NCBI GenBank assembly: GCA_019745775.1
Contig: JAIESR010000117.1
Coordinates: 1-32,127 of the forward strand
Direction of reading: 5' to 3'
Source: Xanthobacteraceae bacterium
GTDB taxonomy: Bacteria; Pseudomonadota; Alphaproteobacteria; Rhizobiales; Xanthobacteraceae
DNA: 32,127 nucleotides
Shown here piece by piece: positions 1,969 through 31,129 of the stretch; position 1 is the first letter of the stretch, and every line of letters begins with the position of its first letter. A program made the translations under genes and the position numbers. Under the pieces are notes generated by a model. The model was not told the DNA's origin. It searched no databases and worked only from the letters and a program-made list of their open reading frames with translations.

Positions 1969-3947
1969 CTCCGGAAATCGGCCACTACGCGCTGGTGCTC
2001 GCCTTCGCGCTCGGCATTTTCCAGGGTTGCGTGCCGCTCTATGGCGCGCAGCGCAACGATCCGGTGCTGATGGCGACGGCCGTGCCGACCGCCGTGGCGC
2101 AGTTCGTGTTTATCGGCATCGCGTTCGCGGCGCTCACGCTCGCCTATGTCGGCTCCGACTTCTCCGTCGTCAACGTGTTCGAGAATTCGCATTCGCTGAA
2201 GCCCTTGATCTACAAGATCAGCGGCGTGTGGGGAAACCACGAAGGCTCGATGCTGTTGTGGGTGCTAATCCTCGCGCTGTTCGGCGCGCTGGTCGCGATC
2301 TTCGGCGGCAACCTGCCGCTGACGCTCAAGGCCAATGTGCTGTCGGTGCAGTCGTGGATCGCCGTCGCCTTTATCCTGTTCATCCTCGCGACCTCGAATC
2401 CGTTCCTGCGGCTCGTTCCCACGCCCGCGGAAGGCCGCGACCTCAATCCGCTGCTGCAGGACCCCGGCCTCGCGATCCATCCGCCGCTCCTGTACGTCGG
2501 CTATGTCGGGCTCTCGATCTCGTTCTCGTTCGCGATCGCGGCGCTGATCGAAGGACGCATCGACGCCGCCTGGGCGCGCTGGGTGCGGCCTTGGACGCTG
2601 CTCGCCTGGATCTTCCTGACGCTCGGGATCGCGATGGGCTCGTACTGGGCCTACTACACGCTCGGCTGGGGCGGCTGGTGGTTCTGGGACCCGGTCGAGA
2701 ACGCCTCCTTCATGCCGTGGCTGATCGCGACCGCGCTGTTGCACTCCGCCGTCGTGATGGAGAAGCGCAACGCGCTCAAGATCTGGACCATCCTGCTCGC
2801 GATCCTGGCGTTCTCGCTGTCGCTGATCGGCACCTTCCTGGTGCGCTCCGGCGTTCTCACCTCGGTGCATGCCTTCGCCACCGATCCGACCCGCGGCGTC
2901 TTCATCCTGGCGCTGCTGATTGTCTTCATCGGCGGCGCGCTGGCGCTGTTCGCCTGGCGGGCGCCGCTGCTCAAGCAGGGTGGGCTGTTCGCGCCGGTGT
3001 CGCGCGAAGGCGCGCTGGTGCTCAACAACCTGTTCCTGGTCACCGCCTGCCTGACGGTGTTCGTCGGCACGCTCTATCCGTTGGCGCTCGAGGCGCTCAC
3101 CGGCGAGAAGATCTCGGTCGGCGCACCGTTCTTCAACGCGACCTTCGGCCCGCTGTTCCTGATGCTGCTCTTGGCGGTGCCGTTCGGCCCGCTGCTGGCC
3201 TGGAAGCGCGGCGACCTGCCGGGCGTGGCGCAGCGGCTGATGGCCGCGGCCGGTGTCGCGCTGGTGGTGATGGTCGCGACCTATGCGATCGCCTGGGGCG
3301 GGCCGGTGCTCGCGCCTGTCATGATCGGCATCGCGGTGTTCGTGATCGCGGGCGCGCTCACCGATTTCGCCGAGCGTGCCGGCGTCGGCAGGGTGCCGCT
3401 TGGCACGTCCGTCCGGCGAGCCGCCGGCCTGCCGCGCTCGGCCTGGGGCACCATGCTTGCGCATCTCGGGCTCGGCCTGACGCTGATCGGCATCGTCGGC
3501 GAAACGCAATTCGGCTCCGAGCGCATCGCCGAGATGAAGCCCGGGCAGACGATGGCGATCGCCGGCTACGATTTCCACTTCGACGGCATCGCCGTTCGGC
3601 CCGGCCCGAACTATCGCGACCAGGTCGCGACCTTCACGGTCCGTCGCGGCGGCGACGTCATCGGCGTGATGGCGCCGTCGAAGCGCACATTCCCGGCGCG
3701 TTCGACCACACGCACCGAGGCGGCGCTGATGGCGCGCGGCTTCAGCCAGCTCTACCTCTCGCTCGGCGACGTTTCGGCGTCGGGCACGCTGGCCGTGCGC
3801 GTCTATCACAAGCCGCTGGTGCTGCTGATCTGGCTCGGCACCATCGTGATGGTGATCGGCGGGACGCTATCGCTGACCGACCGGCGGCTGCGCGTCGGCG
3901 CGCCGAAGCCGGCGCGGGGCAAGGCGGCGATGCAGCCGGCGGAGTAG
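1965..3947 (+). CDS. ccmF: Haem lyase subunit CcmF (CycK)
   Basis: At 660 residues this is a full-length CcmF, a polytopic inner-membrane protein that ligates haem to apocytochrome c together with CcmH and CcmI. The conserved WGNHEGS motif is at residues 89-95. The tryptophan-rich WWD signature WGGWWFWDPVEN begins at residue 235. Many hydrophobic segments run throughout, and a large periplasmic region lies before the last membrane span near residue 615-635 (LVLLIWLGTIVMVIGGTLSL). The ATG at 1965 overlaps the stop of the upstream DUF559 gene, so translation may depend on that gene. ccmH starts 5 bases after the stop. Confidence 0.97.
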   Translation: MTPEIGHYALVLAFALGIFQGCVPLYGAQRNDPVLMATAVPTAVAQFVFIGIAFAALTLAYVGSDFSVVNVFENSHSLKPLIYKISGVWGNHEGSMLLWVLILALFGALVAIFGGNLPLTLKANVLSVQSWIAVAFILFILATSNPFLRLVPTPAEGRDLNPLLQDPGLAIHPPLLYVGYVGLSISFSFAIAALIEGRIDAAWARWVRPWTLLAWIFLTLGIAMGSYWAYYTLGWGGWWFWDPVENASFMPWLIATALLHSAVVMEKRNALKIWTILLAILAFSLSLIGTFLVRSGVLTSVHAFATDPTRGVFILALLIVFIGGALALFAWRAPLLKQGGLFAPVSREGALVLNNLFLVTACLTVFVGTLYPLALEALTGEKISVGAPFFNATFGPLFLMLLLAVPFGPLLAWKRGDLPGVAQRLMAAAGVALVVMVATYAIAWGGPVLAPVMIGIAVFVIAGALTDFAERAGVGRVPLGTSVRRAAGLPRSAWGTMLAHLGLGLTLIGIVGETQFGSERIAEMKPGQTMAIAGYDFHFDGIAVRPGPNYRDQVATFTVRRGGDVIGVMAPSKRTFPARSTTRTEAALMARGFSQLYLSLGDVSASGTLAVRVYHKPLVLLIWLGTIVMVIGGTLSLTDRRLRVGAPKPARGKAAMQPAE

Positions 3948-3952
3948 GGCTC

Positions 3953-4441
3953 ATGCGTTGGTTGCGGCTCGTTGCAATTCTGCTCGTGCTCGGCCCGGCG
4001 TCGCAGGCGCCGGCGGTGCAGCCCGACGAGATTCTGAAGGACCCGGCGCAGGAGGCGCGCGCCCGCGAGCTGTCGAAGCAGCTGCGCTGCATGGTGTGTC
4101 AGAATCAATCGATCGACGATTCCGACGCGCCGCTCGCCCGTGATTTGCGAATTCTCGTGCGAGAGAGATTGCAGGCCGGCGACAGCAACAGCCAGGTGCT
4201 CGACTTCCTGGTGCAGCGCTACGGCGAGTTCGTGCTGCTGCGCCCACGCCTGCATTGGCGTACCGCGCTGCTGTGGCTGGCGCCGCCGGTGCTGCTGATC
4301 GGCGGGGGGCTCATTCTGTTGATGCTGGCGCGCCGCCGCCGCGGGGCAGGCCCCGTCGACGCAGCATTGCCCCAGGGGGGTGCGCTGACGCCGGACGAGG
4401 AACGGCGCCTGGCCGGGCTGATGAAGCCCGAGGATCGCTGA
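3953..4441 (+). CDS. ccmH: Cytochrome c-type biogenesis protein CcmH (CycL)
   Basis: The 162-residue product begins with a signal-like hydrophobic stretch (WLRLVAILLVLGPASQAPA). The defining LRCxxCQ motif is present as LRCMVCQNQSI, with Cys46 and Cys49. This pair reduces apocytochrome haem-binding cysteines before haem attachment. A C-terminal membrane span (about 103-123, LLWLAPPVLLIGGGLILLML) is followed by an Arg-rich cytoplasmic turn and a short tail. The start at 3953 is five bases after the ccmF stop; the same frame is open far upstream, but only inside ccmF. It ends the ccm operon here; the thioredoxin-like ccmG is not in the window. Confidence 0.96.
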   Translation: MRWLRLVAILLVLGPASQAPAVQPDEILKDPAQEARARELSKQLRCMVCQNQSIDDSDAPLARDLRILVRERLQAGDSNSQVLDFLVQRYGEFVLLRPRLHWRTALLWLAPPVLLIGGGLILLMLARRRRGAGPVDAALPQGGALTPDEERRLAGLMKPEDR

Positions 4442-4628
4442 AAATCCTGAATTGTCGGCTCCAAATCGTTGATCTGGATCGATAATCAAGAAAGACGCGA
4501 CCTTACCAAGTTTTAATCCCACCGACAGGCCCCTGTAAGGGTCGCCCCCCCATCTTCGCGTCCGGACGACACAACAAAACGAGCTCGGCCCGGGCGGGAC
4601 GAGCGTCCGACAGATGGAGATCAACCTC

Positions 4629-7245: not shown

Positions 7246-8730
7246 ATGACGGCGCTGGGCAAGCTCTTCCGGACGACCACCTTCAAGTTGACGCTCGTCT
7301 ACTTGACGGTGTTCGCGGTGTTTGCGGCCTTCCTGCTCGCCTATTTCGCCTGGAACACGCGCCGGCTGGTGACCCAGCAGATCGTCGCCACCGTCGACGC
7401 CGAGATCGCAGGCCTCTCCGACCTCTATCAGCAGGGCGGCATCCGCCGGCTGATCTTCGCGATCGACGATCGCGGCGGCCGGCCGGGCTCGAGCCTTTAT
7501 CTCCTCACCACCGCCGCGGGCGAGGGCGTCACCGGCAATATCGGTTCGCTCACCACCGGCGTGCTCGACAAGTCAGGCTGGACCGAGACCGCCTATCGCC
7601 GCATCGACGATTCCGACACCGCCGCCGAGCACCAGGCGCTGGTGCGGGTGCTGCAGCTCCCCGGCGGATTCCGCCTGCTGGTCGGGCGCGACCTGCAGGA
7701 GCGGGAACGGCTGCGCGACATCATCATCAGCGCCGGGCGCTGGTCGATCGCGCTCGTCGTCGTGCTCGGCATCGCCGGCGGGTTGTTCGTCACGCGCCGC
7801 GTGCTCAAGCGCGTCGACGCCATGACCGGCACCACGCAACGGATCATGAGCGGCGACCTGTCGGGGCGGCTGCCGATCGCAGGCAGTAATGACGAGCTCG
7901 ACCGGCTCGCCGGCAACCTCAACGCCATGCTCGAGCGCATCGAGGCGCTGATGCACGGCCTCAAGGAGGTCACCGACAATATCGCGCACGATCTTAAGAC
8001 GCCGCTGACGCGGCTGCGCAACCGCGCCGAGGAGGCGCTGCGCACCGCCGAGGACGAATCGCAGTACCGCGCCGCGCTCGAACGCACCATCGACGAGTCG
8101 GACGCGCTGATCCGGACGTTCAACGCGCTGTTGATGATCGCGCGGGCGGAGTCCGGCCAGGCGCGCGACGGCATGACGACGTTCGACGCCTCCGAGATCG
8201 CCCACGGCATCGGCGATCTCTACGAGCCGCTCGCCGACGACAGGGGGCTCACCTTGCGGGTGGAGGCGCCGGACGCGGCGCCGATGCACGGCAACCGCGA
8301 GCTGATCAGCCAGGCGCTCGCCAACCTGGTCGACAACGCCATCAAATACGCCGCGCCCACCCACGCGACGCTGGCGCCGGAATCGCCGGGCGTGAACGGC
8401 GCGCAACCCGAGATCGTGGTGACGGCGGTCGCCGGCGATGGCGACCGCATTCTGCTGACCGTCGCCGACACCGGCCCGGGCATTCCCGCCGACGACCGCG
8501 CGCGCGCGGTCGAACGCTTCGTGCGGCTGGAGCAGAGCCGCTCGCAGCCCGGCTCGGGCCTGGGGCTCAGCCTCGCCAACGCGGTGGCGAGGTTGCATGG
8601 CGGCGAGTTGCGCCTCGAGGACAATGGGCCCGGCCTGCGCACGGTGCTGGCGCTGCCGCGCGGCGTCGCTGCGGTTCCGGCGCCGCAACAGCCGACGGGC
8701 CGCGAGGGGGTTCCGGCGGCCTCTTCCTGA
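7246..8730 (+). CDS. HAMP-domain sensor histidine kinase, partner of the upstream regulator
   Basis: This 494-residue inner-membrane kinase has a first membrane span at about 14-35 and a periplasmic sensor of roughly 125 residues. The second span is near 163-183 (SIALVVVLGIAGGLFV), followed by HAMP to about 235. The dimerisation/phosphotransfer helix contains the H-box IAHDLKTPLTRLR with His248. ATPase motifs are present: N-box NLVDNAIKYA, G1 DTGPGIP and G2 GSGLGLSLA. It is 54 bases downstream of the response regulator on the same strand, forming a typical pair. The C-terminal 25 residues after the ATPase fold are Pro/Ala-rich. The signal sensed is unknown. Confidence 0.94.
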   Translation: MTALGKLFRTTTFKLTLVYLTVFAVFAAFLLAYFAWNTRRLVTQQIVATVDAEIAGLSDLYQQGGIRRLIFAIDDRGGRPGSSLYLLTTAAGEGVTGNIGSLTTGVLDKSGWTETAYRRIDDSDTAAEHQALVRVLQLPGGFRLLVGRDLQERERLRDIIISAGRWSIALVVVLGIAGGLFVTRRVLKRVDAMTGTTQRIMSGDLSGRLPIAGSNDELDRLAGNLNAMLERIEALMHGLKEVTDNIAHDLKTPLTRLRNRAEEALRTAEDESQYRAALERTIDESDALIRTFNALLMIARAESGQARDGMTTFDASEIAHGIGDLYEPLADDRGLTLRVEAPDAAPMHGNRELISQALANLVDNAIKYAAPTHATLAPESPGVNGAQPEIVVTAVAGDGDRILLTVADTGPGIPADDRARAVERFVRLEQSRSQPGSGLGLSLANAVARLHGGELRLEDNGPGLRTVLALPRGVAAVPAPQQPTGREGVPAASS

Positions 8731-8769
8731 AGCTTGCGGTTTCGGCCTCGCGGTGACTAACTCGCGGAG

Positions 8770-11739
8770 ATGGCGGCATTTGAAAAGACAACGGATGAAC
8801 CCGGCGCGCTCGCGGCGCGCGTCGCAGGCGCGCCGCAGCTTTCCGCACCGGATACCGCGCAGCAACGTGTTGATCGCTGGCTGGGCGAACTGGGTAACGA
8901 TCCTGCGGTTGCCACGCTGCAACGCCTGTTCGCCGCGCATCCGCCGGCGCGGGCGCTGATCCTCGGGCTCGCCGACGGCTCGCCGCATCTGTGGGACCTC
9001 GCCGCTGCCGATCCGGCGCGGCTGGTGCGGGTGCTCGAGACCGATCCCGACACGCGCTTCGACACCATCATCGCCGACGCCGTTGCGGCCATCGCCGCGT
9101 CCCGCGACGAAGCCACCGTGATGGCGCGCCTGCGCCGCATGAAGGCGGAAGCGTCGCTCACAATTGCGCTCGCCGACATCGGCGGCGTCTGGCCGGTGAC
9201 GCGCGTCGTCGCTGCGCTCACGGAACTCGCCGATGCCGCGGTCGGCGCGGCCGTGCATCATCTGCTCGGCCAGGCGACGCGCGAAGGGAAGCTGCGCCCG
9301 GCAAACCCCGCCGAGCCCGAGGCCGGCAGCGGCTACATCGTGCTGGCCATGGGCAAGATGGGGGCGGGCGAGCTCAACTATTCGAGCGACATCGACCTGA
9401 TCGTCTTCTACGACGCCCGCGCGGGCGCGCTGGCGCCCGGCTCCGAACCGGCGCCGTTCTACGTGCGCATCACCCGCGGCCTGGTGAAACTCCTCCAGGA
9501 GCGCACCGCCGACGGCTACGTATTCCGCACGGACCTGCGGCTGCGCCCTGATCCGGGCTCGACCCAGATTGCGGTGTCGACCGCGGCGGCGCTCGACTAC
9601 TACGAGAGCATCGGCCGTAATTGGGAGCGCGCCGCCATGATCAAGGCGCGCGCCTGCGCCGGCGATATCGCCGCCGGCGAGAACCTCCTGCGGGACCTCT
9701 CGCCATTCATCTGGCGGAAGTATCTCGACTTCGCGGCGGTGGCCGACATCCACAGCATGAAACGGCAGATCCACGCTTATCGCGGTCACGGAGAAATTGC
9801 CGTCGAAGGACACAACGTAAAGCTCGGACGCGGCGGCATCCGCGAGATCGAGTTCTTCGTGCAGACCCAGCAGCTCATCGCCGGCGGGCGCCATCCGGAG
9901 CTGCGCGGCCGCGAGACGCTCAAGATGCTCGACGTGCTGGCCGAAGGCGAATGGATCAGCACCGATGCGCGCGACGAGCTCGGCGCCGCCTATCGCTTCC
10001 TGCGCGCGCTCGAACACCGGCTGCAGATGGTCGCCGACGAGCAGACGCATACATTGCCGGGGGACCGCGAGGGCCTCGAACGCTTCGCCCGTTTCTTCGG
10101 CTTTGCCGACCGCGACGGTTTCGCCGAGACGCTGCTCGGCCATCTGCGCAACGTGCAGCGGCAATACGCGACGTTGTTCGAAAGCGCGCCGGCAGCGGAG
10201 GCGAGGGCGCGCGCGCTGGCGTTCCCGGCCGATGCCGACGATCGCGAGACGCTGGATAAGCTCACCGGCATGGGCTTCAAGCAGCCGCTCGAAGCCTCGG
10301 CGCGGGTGCGGCAATGGCTTTCCGGCGCCTATCGCTCGCTGCGCGGCGAGCATTCACGGGAGCAGCTCGCCGAGTTGGTGCCGCTGCTGCTCACGCATTT
10401 TGCACGGTCTTCAAATCCGGACGCGGCGCTGCTCGCGTTCGACCGTTTCCTGGCGGGGCTGCACGGCGCCGGGCGGCTGTTCTCGCTGCTGCGGCAGAAC
10501 CCCGACCTGATCGCCCTGATCGCGATGGTGCTCGGCACGGCGCCGCGGCTCGCCGACAGCCTCGCGCAGTTCCCCGACGTCATCGACGCGGTGGTTGACC
10601 CGAGCTTCTTCGGCGCGCTGCCGGAGGAGGCCGAGCTCACGGCGGCGCTCAAGCGTTCGGTAAGCCAATCAGGCAGCTACGAGGACTTCCTCGATCGCAT
10701 CCGCATCTTCGCGCAGGAGCAGATGTTCCTGATCGGCACGCGCATCCTCTCCGGCACCGTGTCGGCGGAGCAGGCGGGCGAGGCGTTCGCGCGGCTCGCC
10801 GACATGCTGGTCCGTTCGCTGCATCGCGCGGTCGAGGACGAGTTCACCAAGCTGCACGGCCGCATCGCCGCCCAGGAGGTCGCGATCCTCGCGCTCGGCA
10901 AGCTCGGCGGCCGCGAGATGACGGCGACCTCCGACCTCGACCTGATCGTGATCTACGATTTCGACACCGAGCACCCGGAATCCGACGGCCCGCGCCCGCT
11001 CTACGGCGCGCAGTATTTCACCCGGCTGGTGCAGCGGCTGATCAGCGCGCTCACCGCGCCGACCAATTATGGCGTGCTCTACCAGGTCGACATGCGGCTG
11101 CGGCCGTCGGGTCGCGCCGGGCCGGTGGCGACGCGCATCGACAGCTTCGCGGGCTACCAGGAGACCGAAGCCTGGACCTGGGAGCACATGGCGCTGACGC
11201 GCGCCCGCGTGGTGTCGGCGTCGCCCGCGTTCCGCGCCCGGATCGAGGCGGCGATCGCCTCGGTGCTTGGCACCGCGCGCAATGCCGAACTGATCGCCGG
11301 CGACGTCACCGAGATGCGGCAGGCGATCGCGCGCGAGAAGGGCGAGGACGACCGCTGGAACCTCAAGCACGCCGCCGGCGGCCTGGTCGACATCGAGTTC
11401 ATCGCCCAATACCTTCAGCTCGTGCATGGCGCCGCCACGCCGGAGCTCCTCGACACCTCGACCATCCGCGTGCTGGACAAGGCGTGGCGGCTCGGCCTCT
11501 TGCCGACCGAGCACGCCGAGGTGCTGCGGCCGGCGGTGCGGCTCTATCACAACCTGACGCAGATCCTGCGGCTCTGCCTGCCCGGCGACTTCGACGCCAA
11601 GACCGCGGCGCCGGGGCTTTCCGCCCTCTTGGCACGCGCGGCCGACGTCCCCGATTTCGCCACGCTCGAAGCCTTCATCGCAGAGACGGAAACCAAGGTG
11701 CGCAGGAGCTTCGAGCGCATCCTTGAGGCGTCGGTTTGA
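8770..11739 (+). CDS. glnE: Bifunctional glutamine synthetase adenylyltransferase/deadenylyltransferase
   Basis: At 989 residues this is a full-length GlnE. Two nucleotidyltransferase domains are visible. The N-terminal one has LNYSSDIDLIVFYD (Asp207 and Asp209), for deadenylylation. The C-terminal one has MTATSDLDLIVIYDFD (Asp722 and Asp724), for adenylylation of glutamine synthetase. Each is preceded by the conserved Gly-Lys segment (AMGKMGAGEL, ALGKLGGREM). The regulatory region between them and the C-terminal LKHAAGGLVDIEFIAQYLQL motif are intact. GlnE responds to PII and glutamine status to tune nitrogen assimilation. It begins 39 bases after the kinase gene and could be co-transcribed. 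Confidence 0.97.
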   Translation: MAAFEKTTDEPGALAARVAGAPQLSAPDTAQQRVDRWLGELGNDPAVATLQRLFAAHPPARALILGLADGSPHLWDLAAADPARLVRVLETDPDTRFDTIIADAVAAIAASRDEATVMARLRRMKAEASLTIALADIGGVWPVTRVVAALTELADAAVGAAVHHLLGQATREGKLRPANPAEPEAGSGYIVLAMGKMGAGELNYSSDIDLIVFYDARAGALAPGSEPAPFYVRITRGLVKLLQERTADGYVFRTDLRLRPDPGSTQIAVSTAAALDYYESIGRNWERAAMIKARACAGDIAAGENLLRDLSPFIWRKYLDFAAVADIHSMKRQIHAYRGHGEIAVEGHNVKLGRGGIREIEFFVQTQQLIAGGRHPELRGRETLKMLDVLAEGEWISTDARDELGAAYRFLRALEHRLQMVADEQTHTLPGDREGLERFARFFGFADRDGFAETLLGHLRNVQRQYATLFESAPAAEARARALAFPADADDRETLDKLTGMGFKQPLEASARVRQWLSGAYRSLRGEHSREQLAELVPLLLTHFARSSNPDAALLAFDRFLAGLHGAGRLFSLLRQNPDLIALIAMVLGTAPRLADSLAQFPDVIDAVVDPSFFGALPEEAELTAALKRSVSQSGSYEDFLDRIRIFAQEQMFLIGTRILSGTVSAEQAGEAFARLADMLVRSLHRAVEDEFTKLHGRIAAQEVAILALGKLGGREMTATSDLDLIVIYDFDTEHPESDGPRPLYGAQYFTRLVQRLISALTAPTNYGVLYQVDMRLRPSGRAGPVATRIDSFAGYQETEAWTWEHMALTRARVVSASPAFRARIEAAIASVLGTARNAELIAGDVTEMRQAIAREKGEDDRWNLKHAAGGLVDIEFIAQYLQLVHGAATPELLDTSTIRVLDKAWRLGLLPTEHAEVLRPAVRLYHNLTQILRLCLPGDFDAKTAAPGLSALLARAADVPDFATLEAFIAETETKVRRSFERILEASV

Positions 11740-11751
11740 GCCGTTGGTGAC

Positions 11752-12012
11752 TTACTTCAGCTCAAATTCCACCAGGTTGATGGCGGTCGTGCCACTGTTG
11801 CGGATCGCGCGTGTCGCGCCGGGCTCCTGCCAGTAGAAATCGCCGGAGCGCAGCGCCAGCGGACGGTCCATCTCGCCCGCGATGAGAGTGCGCCCGCCCC
11901 GGAGCTTGCGCAAGCATGCGGCGCTACGACCCGGCGGCGGCCGTACCAATAGCAATCGCGAATAAGATACTTTCACCGTCAGCCCGGCTGTTGCGACACC
12001 GGGGCCGTGCAT
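11752..12012 (-). pseudogene. Probable 3' remnant of a small cupin-like protein
   Basis: The last 40 or so codons read LRSGDFYWQEPGATRAIRN...INLVEFELK, the recognisable end of short cupin-fold proteins (GDV-x-W-x-EPG followed by NTG-x-TP-x-x-x-VEFELK). The upstream half lacks the first cupin motif, and the frame begins inside or beside the palindromic repeat at 12010-12086. I read it as a 5'-truncated, decaying gene. The 385 bases between glnE and the next gene contain only this remnant and the repeat. Confidence 0.4.
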
Positions 12013-12086
12013 CCTTGGAGGCCCTCGCGGAGTTTATCGTCGGGCCGCGCTTCGCGCGGACCCGGCGGCGAGGGCACCCCAGGATG
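12010..12086. repeat. Palindromic intergenic repeat of a second type
   Basis: Nested inverted repeats form a three-level cruciform. Outer CATCCT (12010-12015) pairs with AGGATG (12081-12086). GCCCTCGC (12021-12028) pairs with GCGAGGGC (12068-12075). An inner CCGCGC (12045-12050) pairs with GCGCGG (12054-12059). I recall the outer CATCCT...AGGATGACG motif as a frequent intergenic repeat in Bradyrhizobium-type genomes. It differs from the repeat at 1447-1941. Confidence 0.75.
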
Positions 12087-12124
12087 ACGGGGTGATGTTA
12101 GTGCTCGGATCAAAAGGTACATCC

Positions 12125-13105
12125 ATGCGCCTTGTCCGCCGCCAGTTCCTGCAGGCCGCCGCCGGTGCGGCGTTGTCGGCGCCGTTCGCCGCTGCGGCGT
12201 CGGCACAGGCCTATCCCAGCCGCCCGGTGCGCATGATCGTGCCGGTCGGCGCCGGCGGAGCGAACGACACCGCGACGCGGCTCGTGGCGCAGAAGCTGTC
12301 AGAGAGCCTGAGGCAACCGTTCTACGTGGAGAACATCGTCGGCGCCGGCGGCAATATCGGCATGGCGCAGGCGATGAAGGCCGCGCCCGACGGCTACACG
12401 ATGCTCTCGGTCGCGCCGAGCTTCGTGATCAACCCGACACTCAATCCGAAGACGCCGTTCGATCCGCTCAAGGATTTCGCGCCGGTGACGCTGATGGGTG
12501 CGACGCCGACGGTGGTCGTCGCCCACGAGTCGGTCGGCGCGCGCACGATCAAGGAGCTGATCGCGCTGCTCAAGGCCAATCCCGGCAAGTTGAGCTATTC
12601 CTCGGCCGGCACCGGCACGCCGGCGCATCTCGCCGGCGAGCTGTTCAAGGCCGCCTACGGCGTCGACATCATCCACGTGCCGTTCACCGGCGGCGGGCCG
12701 GCGATGAATTCCACCGTCGGCGGCCATACGCCGATCAGTTTCCCGGCGCTGTCCACCGCGGCGCCGAGCATCCTCGGCGGCAAGGTGCGCGGGCTCGCGG
12801 TGATGAGCCCGAAGCGCTCGTCGACGCTGCCGGACGTTCCGACCATGGTCGAATCCGGCCTCGGCGATCAGCAGGCCGACGTGTTCGTCGGCATCCTCAT
12901 GCCCGCAGGGGCGCCGCGCCCGGTGATCGACCTGATCCACGAGGAGATCGTGAAGGCGCTGGCGCTACCCGACGTGAAAGAGAAGCTCGCGACGCTCGGC
13001 TTCGATCCGATCGGCAATTCCCCCGACGCGTTCGGCGCCTGGATCAAGGCGGAAGTCGCCAAGTGGGCGAAGGTCATGCGCGACGCCAACATCAAGCTGC
13101 CGTAG
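12125..13105 (+). CDS. Bug-family (TctC-like) periplasmic substrate-binding protein, Tat-type signal
   Basis: The 326-residue product begins MRLVRRQFLQAAAG; the twin arginine and following hydrophobic region ending AASAQA indicate Tat export. The mature part starts with the Bug-family signature YPSRPVRMIVPVGAGGANDT. Later family motifs include NPGKLSYSSAGTGTPAHLAGE, IIHVPFTGGGPAMN, LPDVPTMVESG and GILMPAGAP. Such proteins bind carboxylates or other small anionic compounds for tripartite tricarboxylate transporters, or act as orphan sensors. No TctA or TctB membrane gene is nearby. An ATG further upstream (12095) exists, but the twin-arginine start at 12125 gives the sensible signal peptide. 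Confidence 0.92.
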   Translation: MRLVRRQFLQAAAGAALSAPFAAAASAQAYPSRPVRMIVPVGAGGANDTATRLVAQKLSESLRQPFYVENIVGAGGNIGMAQAMKAAPDGYTMLSVAPSFVINPTLNPKTPFDPLKDFAPVTLMGATPTVVVAHESVGARTIKELIALLKANPGKLSYSSAGTGTPAHLAGELFKAAYGVDIIHVPFTGGGPAMNSTVGGHTPISFPALSTAAPSILGGKVRGLAVMSPKRSSTLPDVPTMVESGLGDQQADVFVGILMPAGAPRPVIDLIHEEIVKALALPDVKEKLATLGFDPIGNSPDAFGAWIKAEVAKWAKVMRDANIKLP

Positions 13106-24555: not shown

Positions 24556-25344
24556 TTGATTACGCCACTCAGAAAGCGGACCCTGGAGGGGACGCTGTAC
24601 AAGCGGGACGCCAAGGTCGAGGCGCTCTTGGTGAAACTGGAGGTGCTGCCGCGCGCGGAACTGGTTGCGCGGTGCCAAATCACCGATCGGAACGACCCCA
24701 GCTACGTGTCGAGCGAATGCCTGATATATTTTGTCCGCGCGACGCGCCAGGACAACTCGGATGAGCACTTCGAGCGGCTCTACAAGATACTGCTCTCGCG
24801 AGTGATGCGAGCCCTGCCTAACGCCGAAACGAATGAAGGTGAGGTCGTCTGCATCTCCCAGACCAAGAGCCGCATCCGCGAGGTCGCGTTCGACCGTTTC
24901 ACAGAGGCCCTTGCCACCGACCGCCAAGCCTATTCCGAGAAGCTGGATTATTTCGAGGTCCGGTTCGACGGCGCGGTCGCCAATTTGCGCCGGGACGCCC
25001 AGGACACGGCTTGGCGGGAGGAGAACCGCTCAACCACCATCGAATACGACCAGGAAACGAACGAGCCTTCTGCCGAGGTCGAAGAAGCCGCTGGCAGCTT
25101 TAATCCCTTCGAAAATTTGGAGGAGAGCGATTACCGGTCCCGGCTGGATGCAGCGATTGATACCCTGCCACCAGAACAAATCAGGATCATCCAAATGCTG
25201 CGAGAAGGCTTTCCCATCGACTCGAGGGACCCGGACGCCGTTACCATCGCCAAAACACTGAAGAAGTCGGAGAAGACGATAAGGCTGCATCGTGACCGGG
25301 CCCTCAAGGTCTTGCGGGCTGCCTTGCACGGGGAGTCCGAATAA
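24556..25344 (+). CDS. Sigma-70-like transcription regulator, first gene of the ImmA-UvrD operon
   Basis: GGGGAGA at 24544-24550 sits correctly before a TTG start at 24556 (262 residues); the frame extends to another TTG at 24496. The C-terminal region LDAAIDTLPPEQIRIIQML ... AVTIAKTLKKSEKTIRLHRDRALKVLRAAL is a clear sigma region-4 helix-turn-helix. The middle (YVSSECLIYFVRATRQ, FERLYKILLSRVMRAL) resembles a degenerate region 2. An acidic linker (EYDQETNEPSAEVEEAAG) separates them. It may act as an alternative sigma factor or only as a DNA-binding regulator, as region 2 is poorly conserved. Its TAA overlaps the ATG of the next gene by one base, implying translational coupling. Confidence 0.75.
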   Translation: MITPLRKRTLEGTLYKRDAKVEALLVKLEVLPRAELVARCQITDRNDPSYVSSECLIYFVRATRQDNSDEHFERLYKILLSRVMRALPNAETNEGEVVCISQTKSRIREVAFDRFTEALATDRQAYSEKLDYFEVRFDGAVANLRRDAQDTAWREENRSTTIEYDQETNEPSAEVEEAAGSFNPFENLEESDYRSRLDAAIDTLPPEQIRIIQMLREGFPIDSRDPDAVTIAKTLKKSEKTIRLHRDRALKVLRAALHGESE

Positions 25345-25928
25345 TGGCCACCCCAACCCAAACCCCATCGCTTGAAGATGTGCTCGGTGCTTTTTCGGTC
25401 GAGGCCAACCCGGATCGCGGGACACTAGAGCTCTATATCCAGCGTTACCCGCAGTTTGCGGAAGAGTTGATTGACCTCTCGCTTGAGCTGCATCGCACGT
25501 TACCGGGTGCGGCCGCCCGCCTTGCAGTCGAGGATGAGGCCAGGATCGATGCCGCCTGGCGGCGACATGTCGAGGCCCTGAGCCCACAAGCGCAAGCCGA
25601 CCTATTCGCGGCGCTTTCAACGCAAGAGCTTCGTGATCTTTCGAAAGCGCTGGACCTTCCCCGACAGGTCATTACGGCGTTCCGCGATCGGCGCGTGATT
25701 TTGGATTCCGTGCCGCGGCGCTTCCTTGGGCGTCTGGCTACATTGGTCCATCAACCGCTGGAGCGCTTGGCTGCCAGTATTACGCCCGCCGCTCAGCCCG
25801 CTCTGACGCGCAGCTACAAATCGGACGCCAAGCCGACAGCGGGCGAACCAGTCACGTTCGAGCGCCTCCTGATCGACGCCGGCGTGCCCGACGACAAGCG
25901 CGCACAGCTCCTCGCCGACGCCGACTGA
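25344..25928 (+). CDS. Unknown protein with an HTH-like segment, possible partner of the ImmA/IrrE peptidase
   Basis: This 194-residue protein is not one I recognise by name. Residues about 91-143 (LSTQELRDLSKALDLPRQVI ... VPRRFLGRLATLVHQPLERL) resemble an XRE/Cro-type helix-turn-helix, although the recognition helix is atypical. The N-terminal part (ELYIQRYPQFAEELIDLSLE) is helical and acidic. The C-terminus (TFERLLIDAGVPDDKRAQLL) looks like a short helical peptide that could bind a partner. Its ATG overlaps the stop of the sigma-like gene, and the helicase ATG follows its stop by one base. ImmA/IrrE peptidases normally inactivate an adjacent HTH repressor, so a substrate role is a reasonable inference. 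An anti-sigma role is the alternative. Confidence 0.6.
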   Translation: MATPTQTPSLEDVLGAFSVEANPDRGTLELYIQRYPQFAEELIDLSLELHRTLPGAAARLAVEDEARIDAAWRRHVEALSPQAQADLFAALSTQELRDLSKALDLPRQVITAFRDRRVILDSVPRRFLGRLATLVHQPLERLAASITPAAQPALTRSYKSDAKPTAGEPVTFERLLIDAGVPDDKRAQLLADAD

Positions 25929-25929
25929 C

Positions 25930-28791
25930 ATGGATGCGGTCGAACTCGCCCGACAAGCCGCTGCCCGACTGCATACGCAGGCGGTCGAAAAGGGGCACGA
26001 TCCCTGGAGGCCTTATGCGTTCGCAAAGGCCGAAGCGGAGCGCCGGGGCCTAGATGTCGAAGTTGCGGCAAAGGGCGCTGCCGTGCTCGACGGCGGGCGC
26101 GCGGTGTTCGTCGCCCGTGACGATCTCATCCTTCACGAAGATGCGGGCACACCATTCGAACGGGCATTTCTCGTCGCCCATGAAATCGGTCACGCCGAAC
26201 TCGGCGACGACGGCGACCCGACGCCGTCGCGTGAGATTGACCCCGCCCGACCGGCCGAAGCTTCGCCGGTCGGACTCGACCGGGTCGTCGATTATGGCCG
26301 TAAGCAGCGGCGGGAGGTCCAAATGGACCTCTTCGCGCGCGAGTTCTTGCTTCCGCGATCCGTCGCTCGGCGCCTTCATGTGGAGGAGGGGCTTTCCGCG
26401 ACGGCGATCGCCGAGCGCCTCGGGGCGCCGTTCGCCATGGTCGCTCAGCAGCTGTTCGACGCGCTGCTTCTGCCCGTGATCGAATTGCCGGCGGCGGAAG
26501 AGAACGCCGCCCGCGACCTCAATCCCGAACAGATCGTCGCCGCGGCGCATCGGGGCCGCGCCTATCTACTTGAGGCGGGGCCGGGGACCGGCAAGACGCA
26601 AACCTTGGCCGCCCGCATCGAAGGCCTTCTCGCCGACGTGGTCAATCCGCGGCGCATCCTCGTTCTCACCTTTTCCAATAAGGCCGCGCGCGAAATGGCC
26701 GAGCGCATCGCCGCCAAGAACAAGGATGCCGCCGTAGCAATGTGGATCGGCACCTTCCATGCGTTCGGCCTCGATCTCATCCGCCGCTTCCACCAGGAAC
26801 TCGGCTTGCCCAAAGATCCACGCTTGATGGACAGGACGGAAGCCGTCGACCGTTTGGAGGACGTGTTTCCGGGACTTGGTCTCGTCCACTACCAGAATCT
26901 TTCCGATCCGACGCAAATCATAGCTGACATGCTCGCGGCGATCTCGCGCGCCAAGGATGAGGTGGTTGACGCGAAGCGGTATGCCGAGCTCGCGGAGGAC
27001 ATGCGCGTAGCGGGCGCAGGAGAGGCAGCCGAACGCGCCGCGGAAGTCGCTCTGGTCTACGACCGCTACGAAAAGCTCAAGCACGAAGCACATTGCGTCG
27101 ATTTCGGCGATCTCGTTTCGCTGCCTGTGCGGCTTCTCGAAACCCACGAAGCCATCCGCGCGCACCTGCAAGCCGAGTACGACCATGTTCTGGTGGACGA
27201 GTATCAGGACGTAAACCGCAGCAGCGTGCGCCTCCTGGCGGCGTTGCGGCCAGACGGCCAGAACCTCTGGGCGGTCGGTGACGCCAAGCAGTCCATCTAT
27301 CGGTTTCGTGGCGCTTCCTCGTTCAACATGGCGCGCTTCGGAACAGACGATTTTCCGGGCGGAGAGCGCGGGCGCCTCACGCGAAACTATCGATCAGTTC
27401 CCGAGATCGTAGATGCGTTTTCCGCCTTTGCCGCCAAAATGAAAGCAGGCGGGGGTGGCGGGGGCCTCGTAGCGGAGCGTGGCCGGGGCGGGCATCCGCC
27501 GGAACATCGCGCCGTTGCAACGCCTGCCCAGCAAACCGTGGCGCTTGCGGACGCGATCGAGGAGATGCGCGCTGGCGGCGTGCGCTATCGCGATCAAGCC
27601 GTGCTGTGCACCGGCAACGAAAAGCTCTCCACGCTCGGCCACGAGCTGGAGCGCCTTGGCATTCCCGTGCTTTTCCTCGGAAGCCTCTTCGAGCGCGACG
27701 AGGTCAAAGATCTGCTAGCTTTTCTTTCGATCCTCGTCGACCGCCGCGCCATGGGGCTCACCCGCGTCGCCTGCAGCCCCGAATTCCCAATGTCCCTTGG
27801 TGACGTCGGCGCGGTTCTCGACCACCTGCGCGGCAATGAGACCACCCCGCTTGCCTGGCTGAATGCCATCGATCGTATCGCGGAGCTTTCGGCCGACGGC
27901 GCCGCAGCGCTTCGCCGCCTATCGACTGCGCTGGCCGGATTCGATGCCGGTGCGTCACCTTGGACGGTGCTCGCGACGTTGCTTCTCGATCGGACGCGGA
28001 TCGCAGCGCGGCTTTCGGTCTCGGCCGATGTCATCGACCGCGGGCGTTGCATCGCACTCTGGCAACTCCTGAATTTTGTGCGCGCCCAGCCATCGGGGCG
28101 CGGTCAGCCGGTCGTGCGTCTGCTCGACGGGGTGCGTCGGCTGGTCCGCCTCGGCGACGAACGTGATCTCCGGCAATTGCCCGCGGCTGCGCAAGGCATC
28201 GATGCCGTCCGGCTGATGACGATCCACGGGGCCAAGGGCCTGGAGTTTCCGGTCGTTCATCTGCCCGGCATGAACGCCGATACTTTACCGGGCAACCCAC
28301 GCGCGCCGGCGTGCCCGCCGCCTAACGGCCTCGTCGAGGGTGCCACCGGTAGCTCACTTGACGTAGTGCGCGTGGGGCAAGCCGAGGAGCAGGAATGCCT
28401 CTTCTACGTGGCGCAGTCCCGCGCGCGCGACCGCTTGTTCCTCTATTGCCCGACGCAAAAGTCCAACGGCACCAACCGCCCGGAATCCCCGTTTCTCGCC
28501 CGGATGGGGTCAGGGCTCGCGCGTAAATCGGTCACGCCGTCGCGACCGCTCCCGGAGGCGCCGGAAGACCGTGCGATCGCCTGGACCTACGAAGGCAAGC
28601 TCAGCTTCACCGGACCGCAGATGGCCCTTTACGAGTGCGTGCGAAGCGCACCGCCGTATCGCAGGCATTCGCGAGGCCCTGCGCCATGGTGTCGGGCTCT
28701 CGCGCCGCATACTCAAGATTGCTCTTCACTTCGACGACCGCGCCGGCAACCCGAACACGGCTATTGGCGAAATCGGAGATCGCACCAATGA
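25930..28791 (+). CDS. ImmA/IrrE metallopeptidase-UvrD helicase fusion, C-terminally truncated
   Basis: Residues 1-190 form an ImmA/IrrE (DUF955) domain with the zinc motif HEIGH at 84-88 and the downstream segment EVQMDLFAREFLLP carrying the likely third ligand. A superfamily 1 helicase follows: Walker A GPGTGKT at 217-223, TFSNKAAREM, GTFHAFGLDLI, motif II DEYQD at 423-427, GDAKQSIYRFRGA, LTRNYRS, LMTIHGAKGLEFPVV and YVAQSRARDRLFLY. Near residue 900 the text reaches FTGPQMALYE, where relatives continue into a Cys-containing RecB-type nuclease region. From about 28631 the frame instead runs antisense through jetA to a chance stop at 28791. The peptidase and motor are intact but the nuclease part is lost. 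The gene starts one base after the preceding stop. Confidence 0.85.
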   Translation: MDAVELARQAAARLHTQAVEKGHDPWRPYAFAKAEAERRGLDVEVAAKGAAVLDGGRAVFVARDDLILHEDAGTPFERAFLVAHEIGHAELGDDGDPTPSREIDPARPAEASPVGLDRVVDYGRKQRREVQMDLFAREFLLPRSVARRLHVEEGLSATAIAERLGAPFAMVAQQLFDALLLPVIELPAAEENAARDLNPEQIVAAAHRGRAYLLEAGPGTGKTQTLAARIEGLLADVVNPRRILVLTFSNKAAREMAERIAAKNKDAAVAMWIGTFHAFGLDLIRRFHQELGLPKDPRLMDRTEAVDRLEDVFPGLGLVHYQNLSDPTQIIADMLAAISRAKDEVVDAKRYAELAEDMRVAGAGEAAERAAEVALVYDRYEKLKHEAHCVDFGDLVSLPVRLLETHEAIRAHLQAEYDHVLVDEYQDVNRSSVRLLAALRPDGQNLWAVGDAKQSIYRFRGASSFNMARFGTDDFPGGERGRLTRNYRSVPEIVDAFSAFAAKMKAGGGGGGLVAERGRGGHPPEHRAVATPAQQTVALADAIEEMRAGGVRYRDQAVLCTGNEKLSTLGHELERLGIPVLFLGSLFERDEVKDLLAFLSILVDRRAMGLTRVACSPEFPMSLGDVGAVLDHLRGNETTPLAWLNAIDRIAELSADGAAALRRLSTALAGFDAGASPWTVLATLLLDRTRIAARLSVSADVIDRGRCIALWQLLNFVRAQPSGRGQPVVRLLDGVRRLVRLGDERDLRQLPAAAQGIDAVRLMTIHGAKGLEFPVVHLPGMNADTLPGNPRAPACPPPNGLVEGATGSSLDVVRVGQAEEQECLFYVAQSRARDRLFLYCPTQKSNGTNRPESPFLARMGSGLARKSVTPSRPLPEAPEDRAIAWTYEGKLSFTGPQMALYECVRSAPPYRRHSRGPAPWCRALAPHTQDCSSLRRPRRQPEHGYWRNRRSHQ

Positions 28792-29134
28792 CCATGAAGG
28801 CGTCGGGATGCATGTCGACGAGCACGTCCCACTTGTCCTGCTCCTCGACGAGCCACCCCGTGCTCTTGAGGCGATTGTAAGCGACATAGTGAGCGTGCGG
28901 ACTGGGTTCGGATTCGAGCCCATCTTCCTCCAGTTGGTCGGAGTTCGACACGCCGGCTTCCGCCAGGACGTTGGCAATATGTCGAAGGATTTCGTCTTTC
29001 GATGGGGTCTCGAGCACCCGCGCGGCAAAGACCCGCTCGTAGAGACGAAGGAGCAATCGGGCGTAGACGTGTTTCTTTGGACCGGCCAGCGGTTGAAAAA
29101 GCGTGTCCGGCAGATAGCCAAAGAGCTTCGTCAT
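28607..29134 (-). pseudogene. jetA: Wadjet subunit JetA (kleisin, MksF/MukF-like), N-terminal fragment
   Basis: The start is convincing: GGAGG four bases before ATG at 29134. The protein opens MTKLFGYLPDTLFQPLAGPK and continues through YARLLLRLYERVF, LKSTGWLVEEQDKWDVLVDM and SNLEYAAREPDTMAQGLANA, matching JetA of the Wadjet anti-plasmid system (JetABCD, an SMC-like condensin with a nuclease). Family members have roughly 450-500 residues; only about 167 are native here before the sequence passes at 28631-28640 into antisense helicase codons and stops at 28607. jetB, jetC and jetD are absent, so the system is dead. JetA is the winged-helix/kleisin part linking the SMC heads. Confidence 0.75.
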
Positions 29135-29379: not shown

Positions 29380-30249
29380 ATGGAATCTACTCTTCGGACG
29401 TTAGGACCAGCGGAAGCCCGCGTCGTTCTGTCCTTCCGGGAGCAAGGACGGGATGTCGTCGAGGCCAGCGACATTATTACCTTGCTCCATTCTGAGCAGA
29501 CGGGGCGCAAGGTGATCCGCAACTTGCTCCGCAAGGGCTGGCTGACCCGTCTCACAGGCGGACGATACATGCTGTTGCCGCCTGAGCGCGGCGCGGAGAG
29601 CATGGGTGAGAATAATCCGCTCGCGCTCGCTGCTGCCGTCGTTGAAAATTCCTATGTTGGATGGTGGTCCGCTGCTGCATTTCATGGTTTCACAACGCAG
29701 ATGCCGGCGACGGTCTTTGTTGCTGTCACCAAGCAAACTAAAGCGCGCACGGTCGAGGACACCGAAATCAGATTTGTGACGGTTCCTGCTCGCAAGTTTT
29801 TCGGTGCAAAGCGCTACACCGTCTATGGACGCAGTGTGAACCTCTCTGACCCCGAAAAGACCTTGGTCGACTGCATCGACCGGCCCGAGCTTGCCGGCGG
29901 GCCCGCTGAATTGACGCGCATCGCCCACGCCGCCATGGCGGAGGTCGACCATGGCAAGCTCGTCGACGTCGCAATTCAGATGAAATCCACCTCCTTGCTG
30001 CAACGCCTCGGCTTCCTGACGGATATTGTCGAAAGACCCCTGGATAATAAACTGCGCACGCGGCTGCGGGACGCGATCCCCAAAAGCACGCGCTCGACCT
30101 TCGGCAGGCAGGCGCGCAGGGACGGCGACATCGGCTATGTTGCTGCCTGGGGACTGTTCGTCCACGCGCGACGAAATGATCTGCTTTCCGAAGTCCCGCG
30201 CATCAGAAAGACGGATCAGACCCGTGCTGACGATCGAGCAAATCCGTAG
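29380..30249 (+). CDS. abiEi: Type IV toxin-antitoxin system AbiEi-family antitoxin
   Basis: The 289-residue product has an N-terminal winged-helix domain (AEARVVLSFREQGRDVVEA, IRNLLRKGWLTRLTGGRYML). It is followed by the AbiEi antitoxin core: ALAAAVVENSYVGWWSAAAF, TVEDTEIRFVTVPARKFFG and LSDPEKTLVDCIDRPELAGG. The family represses its own promoter and counteracts the AbiEii toxin without binding it directly. The ATG at 29380 lies 36 bases after the AT-rich -10 region, with GAGAGGG nearby. The toxin gene overlaps its 3' end by 26 bases. Confidence 0.9.
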   Translation: MESTLRTLGPAEARVVLSFREQGRDVVEASDIITLLHSEQTGRKVIRNLLRKGWLTRLTGGRYMLLPPERGAESMGENNPLALAAAVVENSYVGWWSAAAFHGFTTQMPATVFVAVTKQTKARTVEDTEIRFVTVPARKFFGAKRYTVYGRSVNLSDPEKTLVDCIDRPELAGGPAELTRIAHAAMAEVDHGKLVDVAIQMKSTSLLQRLGFLTDIVERPLDNKLRTRLRDAIPKSTRSTFGRQARRDGDIGYVAAWGLFVHARRNDLLSEVPRIRKTDQTRADDRANP

Positions 30250-31129
30250 AATCGCACAGCAATCAGGCGCGAGAGATATCAGTAAGGTCGAGACCGACAT
30301 CATTCTCACCTTCCTGCTTCAGCTCTTTCACGAGAAAGGGATCACGGCGCACATCGCCTTCAAAGGTGGCACAATGCTGCGCAAGATGATCTTTGGTCCG
30401 CGCGGACGCTATTCGACCGACCTTGACTTTACCCGCCGTACCGAGATCACCGACGAAGGCATCATGGAGCTCATGCTCGACGCGCTGAGTCAGCCCTATC
30501 ACGGTCTTTCTTTCCGGTTCGACCGGGACAAAGACTGGTATTTCACCGACAGGAGCTTGGCCGCGAACCCGGTGTGCGTCCATGCAGGCAACGATAAGGG
30601 CGTCAAGATCAAGCTCGAGGTCAGCCTGCGTGAAAAGCCGGTTCTCCCGGTCCGCACGCTGCCGCAGTTGGCCCAGGACTATTTCAAGCTGCTGCCGTTT
30701 AAGCCCGCGGACATACCATCCCTCGTTTATGAGGAGGTCGTCTCCGAGAAGGTGAGAGCGGCTTCACAGCGCTCAAAAATTCGCGACCTTCATGACCTAT
30801 CAGAGGCCGCCGGAAGGGACTGCAACCGTGACCTTCTGCGCTCCCTTGCCGTGATCAAGCTGTGGGAGAGCGATCAGGCTAATCTCGATTACCCAAAGTT
30901 CGTCGCCCAGGTTGAGAATGGAAAGGACTATGACCTCAACGACCTGACGAACCTGTTGCGCAAGGATCAGCGGCCCAACCTCCAAGATATGATCCGACGC
31001 GCCAAAGACGGCTTTCGCTTTCTTGATCAAGTGACCGACTTGGAGCGCAAGATCACGCAAGATGGCGGGCGACGCTGCAAGGACGAGGTCGAGCAGCTCA
31101 AGGCCGACGCGGTAAAGCACGCGGGGTAG
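30224..31129 (+). CDS. abiEii: AbiEii-family nucleotidyltransferase toxin
   Basis: Reading from a GTG at 30224, the product (301 residues) begins MLTIEQIRRIAQQSG, the typical AbiEii N-terminus. The nucleotidyltransferase signature is intact: AFKGGTMLRKM (Gly48, Gly49) followed by STDLDFTRR with Asp66 and Asp68. The later EEVVSEKVRAASQRSKIRDLHDL segment matches the conserved Lys and RD-x-HDL residues of the family. AbiEii-type enzymes arrest growth by nucleotide transfer; tRNA is the target known for relatives. The 26-base overlap with the antitoxin gene suggests coupled translation. An open frame extends 66 codons upstream but only within abiEi. Confidence 0.9.
   Translation: MLTIEQIRRIAQQSGARDISKVETDIILTFLLQLFHEKGITAHIAFKGGTMLRKMIFGPRGRYSTDLDFTRRTEITDEGIMELMLDALSQPYHGLSFRFDRDKDWYFTDRSLAANPVCVHAGNDKGVKIKLEVSLREKPVLPVRTLPQLAQDYFKLLPFKPADIPSLVYEEVVSEKVRAASQRSKIRDLHDLSEAAGRDCNRDLLRSLAVIKLWESDQANLDYPKFVAQVENGKDYDLNDLTNLLRKDQRPNLQDMIRRAKDGFRFLDQVTDLERKITQDGGRRCKDEVEQLKADAVKHAG

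Follow-up and report, generated by a model that had tools for sequence, protein, structure and literature searches.

The stretch of DNA analysed here, hereafter called the window, corresponds to positions 1 to 32,127 of the forward strand of contig JAIESR010000117.1 (32,127 nucleotides) and contains three closely coupled genes, named P1, P2 and P3, which code for a sigma-like protein, a protein with an XRE-like helix-turn-helix (HTH) and a fusion of an M78 metallopeptidase to a UvrD-type helicase. As stated in the original prediction, which was made from the sequence alone, the three genes overlap or abut: all are encoded on the + strand, P1 and P2 overlap by one base, and P2 and P3 are one base apart. 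The features of the trio are as follows.

24556..25344, + strand: P1, sigma-like factor of 262 aa, with a TTG start
25131..25158, + strand: bipartite promoter-like element TTACCGG-N16-CGATT, within P1 and 5' of P2-P3
25344..25928, + strand: P2, 194 aa, with a helical N-terminal part, an XRE-like HTH, a conserved linker and C-terminal helices; would serve as the brake and as the substrate of the protease
25593..25793, + strand: XRE/Cro-like HTH of P2, residues 84-150
25797..25847, + strand: P2 linker (residues 152-168, RSYKxDxKP), conserved but modelled with low confidence; candidate site of cleavage
25930..28641, + strand: P3, truncated M78 metallopeptidase-UvrD helicase fusion, followed by an unrelated tail with which the open frame continues to 28791
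26035..26454, + strand: Peptidase_M78 domain of P3, with the HEIGH motif
26518..28449, + strand: UvrD-type helicase domains of P3, residues 197 to about 840

The observation holds, and the trio is conserved. When GTDB genomes were scanned with a P2 alignment, 87 relatives came up, the best 80 of which were kept as loci: P1 adjoins P2 in 80/80, P2 begins at the customary offset of -3 or 0 relative to the P1 stop in 72/80, and P3 was scored in 78/80, once wrongly, as the 'P3' of L071 is a different, upstream helicase. The three genes, whose co-occurrence had been proposed as a check of the original prediction, are found together in several phyla. Considering matches above 25 bits, 58 of the 80 loci contain the set P1-P2-P3-Ub-E1-DUF6527 (Ub, ubiquitin-like protein), and the shorter sets are P1-P2-P3-Ub (11 loci), P1-P2-P3 (9), P1-P2-Ub (one) and P1-P2 (one); five shorter loci (L032, L052, L060, L071 and L089) stop at contig ends. 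The gap between P3 and Ub measures 81-101 nt in 55/69 loci, the remainder including split, overlong and disrupted reading frames. Furthermore, a tblastn search of 72,556 plasmid records detected P2 in 75 of them and P1 in 77 of them at an E limit of 1e-3, and the M78 portion of P3 in 87 at an E limit of 1e-8. Taxa appearing in record titles are Alpha-, Beta- and Gammaproteobacteria, Acidobacteria, Verrucomicrobiales, Akkermansiaceae and the planctomycete Stieleria, and a plasmid of the cyanobacterium Leptolyngbya has the same gene order, including the ubiquitin-like operon. In L094 and L097, P3 is absent or present as a fragment only, and P1, P2 and both copies of the element are kept.

P1 gives weak matches with sigma-70 families (Sigma70_r4, 18.4 bits versus a cut-off of 24.1; NCBIfam sigma70-ECF, 30.1 versus 42.9) and is called 'sigma-like' because it scores under these curated cut-offs. 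Its structure model, obtained from an alignment of 42 relatives without near-duplicates or split genes, aligns with two-domain sigma factors over regions 2 and 4, between about residue 45 and residue 262. These sigma-like domains, together with the strongly conserved promoter-like element described below, agree with the sigma-70-like regulator that had been predicted, and P1 would be a dedicated alternative sigma factor acting at TTACCGG-N16-CGATT sites. Alternatively, P1 could be a classical transcription activator, which would bind the element and bring in the housekeeping holoenzyme, P2 and P3 still regulating P1. The missed sigma cut-offs and the automatic annotation of P1 relatives, often as DNA-binding response regulators, are consistent with such an activator, but the alignment of the model with regions 2 and 4 and the two conserved boxes of the element, which with their nearly fixed spacing resemble -35/-10 boxes, make it unlikely.

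The element TTACCGG-N16-CGATT was first spotted just 3' of the P3 stop, on reading the gap between P3 and the downstream gene, and a whole-locus scan detected a second copy within the P1 gene, about 216 nt before the P1 stop; the two copies lie about 4.2 kb apart and flank P2-P3. Within P1, 91/92 loci score at least 10/12, all with a spacer of 16 nt, and after P3, 77/83 loci score at least 11, with a spacer of 16 nt in 70 and 15 nt in 7, compared with 11/1720 control windows within P3 that reach at least 10, the P1 search region being 330 nt and the control windows 120 nt, and the counts including closely related loci. The single miss within P1 is L058, which has a shortened P1. The loci with less than 11/12 after P3 are L024, L051, L058, L064, L066 and L075; three of them (L024, L064 and L075) do have the exact element, but their called P3 frame is split or overlong. 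In P1, third-base agreement beyond codon usage, calculated for 260 columns of 81 distinct proteins with a statistic that ignores the kinship of the sequences, is highest at residues 200, 194, 210, 192, 193 and 195; five of these six columns are inside the element (residue 210 being outside), and residue 200 is encoded by GCG in 78/80 sequences. This excess of third-base conservation therefore points to selection acting on the DNA of the element within P1, and not on the protein alone. Codon 210 (25183-25185), outside the element, shows strong synonymous conservation, mostly AGG/CGG, which is unexplained.

In the host assembly, 25131..25158 is the sole exact copy of the element. In 32 genomes carrying the trio, 57 of the 69 exact sites belong to trio loci and 12 are found elsewhere (3 for the reversed-pattern control), and in 199 genomes of the host's order, among which the trio was recognised solely via paired sites, 56 sites were counted, namely 5 in trio loci and 51 in the background (24 for the reversed-pattern control). 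A wide sigma regulon was set aside on the basis of these off-locus sites. One genome (G174) was picked out solely by two sites 4,153 nt apart and proved to carry P1-P2-P3-Ub. The position of the elements on both sides of P2-P3, and the loss of P3 in L094, could also suggest recombination or insertion sites rather than promoters; however, conservation resides mainly in the two boxes, with no common core between them, and in L094 the second element still precedes the ubiquitin-like gene despite the loss of P3. Such a role is highly improbable, and it was set aside because conservation lies mainly in the boxes.

No Pfam or NCBIfam match above cut-off was obtained for P2, a PDB sequence search returned unrelated chains only, and Foldseek alone gave a best E of 1.5. 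The model of P2 (44 relatives plus the window protein, near-duplicates and split genes being left out) displays an XRE-like HTH with modest XRE-type fold similarity, where the original prediction had proposed an HTH-like segment in the 194-residue protein. Of the refuting outcomes named in that prediction, a failure of the three genes to be conserved together and a lack of XRE-type similarity were not encountered. The linker following the HTH is predicted to be disordered, with a predicted local distance difference test (pLDDT) value below 50 at residues 152-158, and contains K163 in 44/45 and P164 in 45/45 sequences. P2 may inhibit P1, and cleavage may take place in this linker. Another possibility is that P2 itself binds and represses both sites, in the manner of CapH in the CapP/CapH pair; P3 would then cleave P2, and P1 would be a lesser partner. 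The XRE-like HTH of P2 fits this role, and M78 proteases are described in PMC10904395 and PMC13373217 as cutting such repressors. The element is nevertheless no two-half-site palindrome, and a single locus, L137 (Robbsia), has retained P2 (102 bits) as well as P3 (1381 bits), lacks a P1-profile match for its first gene and lacks the element in both places. P2 as the reader of the element was set aside on this one locus, and a repressor role is doubtful, slightly more so than an activator role of P1. In L137, the ubiquitin-like operon is inverted and one motif match of 10/12 is found, inside P3; its first gene possibly encodes a regulator of another kind, served by a promoter of its own. The protein without P1 similarity that takes the place of the sigma-like gene before P2-P3 in this locus is encoded at 3812-4480.

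The P3 of the window matches Peptidase_M78 (52.4 bits versus a cut-off of 22), followed by the UvrD helicase. The HExxH motif is present, and the Walker A and DExQ-type motif II are intact, in 71/71 P3 relatives, and the best PADLOC matches of P3 are helicase proteins of DRT and Gabija. Full-length P3 proteins further comprise a C-terminal PDDEXK_1 match with four cysteines that are invariant in 71/71 and that may be AddB/Cas4-like. In this C-terminal domain D1019 is found in 70/71, and in the ten printed rows, read by eye, the expected D/E-x-K stretch is replaced by R-x-R-T-G or similar; the PD-(D/E)XK domain of P3 is apparently nuclease-dead, with the D/E-x-K seemingly lost. A PDB sequence search with the P3 C-terminus retrieved no nuclease, the only matches being D-alanyl-D-alanine carboxypeptidases (E 0.004-0.007), which were treated as chance, and no Lon or SAVED family appears among the Pfam/NCBIfam matches shown for the window P3 and the full-length P3 of L007. 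The intact helicase motifs and the DRT and Gabija matches would be compatible with P3 being a DNA-attacking effector, Gabija- or AddAB-like, with P1 and P2 only setting its level. Against such a role stand the replaced D/E-x-K in the rows read and the separate, exchangeable operon that follows its own copy of the element; it is about as doubtful as a repressor role of P2, and P3 as an effector nuclease was set aside because the D/E-x-K is apparently lost.

In 58/80 loci, belonging to Pseudomonadota, Acidobacteria, Verrucomicrobia and one planctomycete, the trio is followed by a ubiquitin-like conjugation operon (Multi_ubiq, ThiF E1 and DUF6527); a Ub-type match only was found in 12 further loci, which brings any Ub match to 70/80. 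The original prediction did not include this operon, which in relatives lies mostly directly downstream. Several layouts are encountered: (i) Multi_ubiq, DUF6791-ThiF and DUF6527, (ii) Multi_ubiq and Prok-E2_E in a single protein, Prok-JAB and ThiF in a single protein, and DUF6527, and (iii) JAB- and ThiF-type genes with other small proteins. In L086, an SbcD/SbcC-like pair replaces the ubiquitin-like operon and is preceded by the same element after P3 (14020-18333). Because the downstream genes vary between ubiquitin-like layouts and this SbcD/SbcC-like pair, the trio has the appearance of a controller cassette whose effectors can be exchanged. The frequent presence of Ub beside the trio could also mean that the M78 domain processes the ubiquitin-like protein (maturation or deconjugation) and not P2; however, L086 has the trio and both elements with no ubiquitin-like gene detected, and some downstream operons bring their own Prok-JAB match, which leaves little room for this role, less than for P3 as an effector.

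Single-stranded DNA activates M78-type proteases such as PprI and CapP, which cleave HTH repressors (PMC10904395 and PMC13373217); CapP aligns structurally with PprI/IrrE, and CapH+CapP is located at immune operons, Bub included (PMC13373217, in part). In the CalpL/CalpT/CalpS system, a protease cuts an anti-sigma factor once infection has been sensed and frees an extracytoplasmic function (ECF) sigma factor (PMC11417357, in part). Because these M78 and CalpL/T/S precedents can be combined with the anatomy of the locus, of which the conserved operon, the sigma-like fold of P1, the HTH of P2, the protease and helicase motifs of P3, its D/E-x-K loss and the paired elements are supported by the sequences, we infer a role of P1 as a sigma factor at the sites, its inhibition by P2, the cleavage by P3 and a DNA trigger. 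The trio would then rather probably be a transferable switch, in which P3 senses DNA and cleaves P2, and the freed P1 fires both promoters. The original prediction, with a helicase that activates its own protease, removal of the HTH-like partner and release of the sigma-like factor, is partly supported. In brief, the UvrD helicase and the apparently nuclease-dead four-Cys PD-(D/E)XK domain of P3 would engage abnormal or invading DNA; this engagement would switch on the M78 protease; P3 would cut P2, probably in the conserved disordered linker; P2 cleavage would free P1; and P1 would direct RNA polymerase to both TTACCGG-N16-CGATT promoters. The promoter internal to P1 would raise P2-P3, providing feedback and reset, and the promoter after P3 would turn on the effector operon, usually the ubiquitin-like conjugation system. 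The fuller statement, that of a mobile, DNA-damage-triggered sigma switch present in several phyla and controlling ubiquitin-like tagging through promoters located inside the sigma gene and before an interchangeable effector operon, has in our view about even chances of being correct.

The paired-promoter part of this switch is weakened by a divergent family of trio loci, b (L017, L018 and the plasmids L138-L140), which shows the same gene order followed by JAB/ThiF-type genes. After P3, these loci reach element scores of 8-10/12 only, with the form TTTCCGG-N16-CGATC in L017 and L140 (10/12) and more divergent forms in L138, L139 and L018, and a scan of the b loci detected no element at the usual place within P1. 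In L140, one 10/12 match is found early in P1, off the usual position and with a spacer of 15 nt; in L138, two 10/12 matches are located within 620 nt 3' of P3; and no word of 5+5 letters shared by the inside of P1b and the region after P3b is common to L017 and L018. The host genome itself carries a second trio, of the b type and accompanied by JAB/ThiF-type genes, which seems to be split between two contigs, C71 (L016, G000:C71) and C16 (L129, G000:C16).

The kinds of components are known, and their combination and the paired promoters look new. Compared by description, CapP/CapH and PprI(IrrE)/DdrO pair a metallopeptidase with an HTH repressor, of which P2 would be the candidate counterpart; unlike in these systems, the protease of the trio forms one protein with a UvrD helicase and a four-Cys PD-(D/E)XK domain, and the HTH gene overlaps a sigma-like gene. 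The output of the trio also looks like sigma activation and not, as in CapP/CapH, loss of repression. CalpL/T/S, compared in the same way from PMC11417357, has three partners too, but its protease is of the Lon type and carries a SAVED domain that senses cA4, instead of being an M78 protease with a helicase. CapK/CapS is a DNA-damage controller 5' of immune operons, Bub among them, and some of its parts resemble sigma regulators; it consists of a kinase and a STAS-wHTH repressor, and the relevant passages of PMC13373217 name neither a protease nor a helicase nor a sigma factor as belonging to it. According to the same passages, CapW or CapH+CapP was assigned to 219/544 Bub operons and CapK+CapS to 59. 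The Bub and Bil operons and the E1/E2/JAB/Ub clusters (Iyer et al. 2006) resemble the downstream Multi_ubiq, ThiF E1, Prok-E2_E, Prok-JAB and DUF6527 genes, and would be the controlled effectors, not counterparts of the trio. Helicase-nucleases of the AddAB/Cas4 type and GajB share the UvrD match and the C-terminal PDDEXK_1 match with four conserved Cys, but in P3 the catalytic D/E-x-K is replaced in the rows read and an N-terminal protease domain is added. Literature searches for the gene combination gave no description among the matches listed, which include a toxin-antitoxin paper naming PF14452, a prior mention being possible in the papers defining Bub, and the terms 'helicase' and 'sigma factor' have 0 occurrences in the main text of PMC1779556 (term search). 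The claim of the original prediction that no described system contains this trio is kept to that extent, but the resemblance of the model to CapP/CapH and CalpL/T/S makes the trio less isolated than the claim implied.

If the operons downstream of the trio are of the Bub kind, the trio would be a further controller with ready assay parts, namely candidates for the sigma factor and its brake, a promoter-like sequence and a protease whose active site is easily mutated, and it would join DNA-activated M78 proteolysis and protease-released sigma in one module movable between effectors.

The copy in the window is shortened at its 3' side, where two further features are found.

28634..28641, no strand: junction of the 3'-truncated P3 (+) and a 3'-truncated jetA (-)
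28607..29134, - strand: N-terminal fragment of JetA (Wadjet), positions 2-163 of a 465-position model; neighbour of the module, not a member

The window P3 aligns with the 1,135-aa relative from L007 (Cereibacter azotoformans, intact at 8153-12967) over residues 1-911 of that protein only, the alignment ending at base 28641, and is devoid of the C-terminal PD-(D/E)XK-like four-Cys domain. The match of the jetA fragment spans 28634-29128 on the opposite strand, tail-to-tail with the truncated P3. A second promoter-like element and the tagging operon are absent downstream of P3. A JetA search of the host assembly found the window fragment only, the same search giving no match in control genomes, and a Multi_ubiq search of the host genome gave no match, the same search matching none of 14 control genomes either. 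The simplest reading is that a single deletion removed the end of P3, its downstream region and the rest of the convergent jetA operon, the alternative being an assembly error at the junction. Because the P3 C-terminus, the second promoter and the tagging operon are missing, the window module is probably a truncated, inactive remnant.

Beside the remnant, an AbiEi/AbiEii (type IV toxin-antitoxin) pair is encoded at 29380-31129 (+). A DUF6088/AbiEii pair is located directly 5' of the trio in L012 and L013, and SbcCD-like genes are found close 5' of the trio in L016, L017, L138, L051 and L058.

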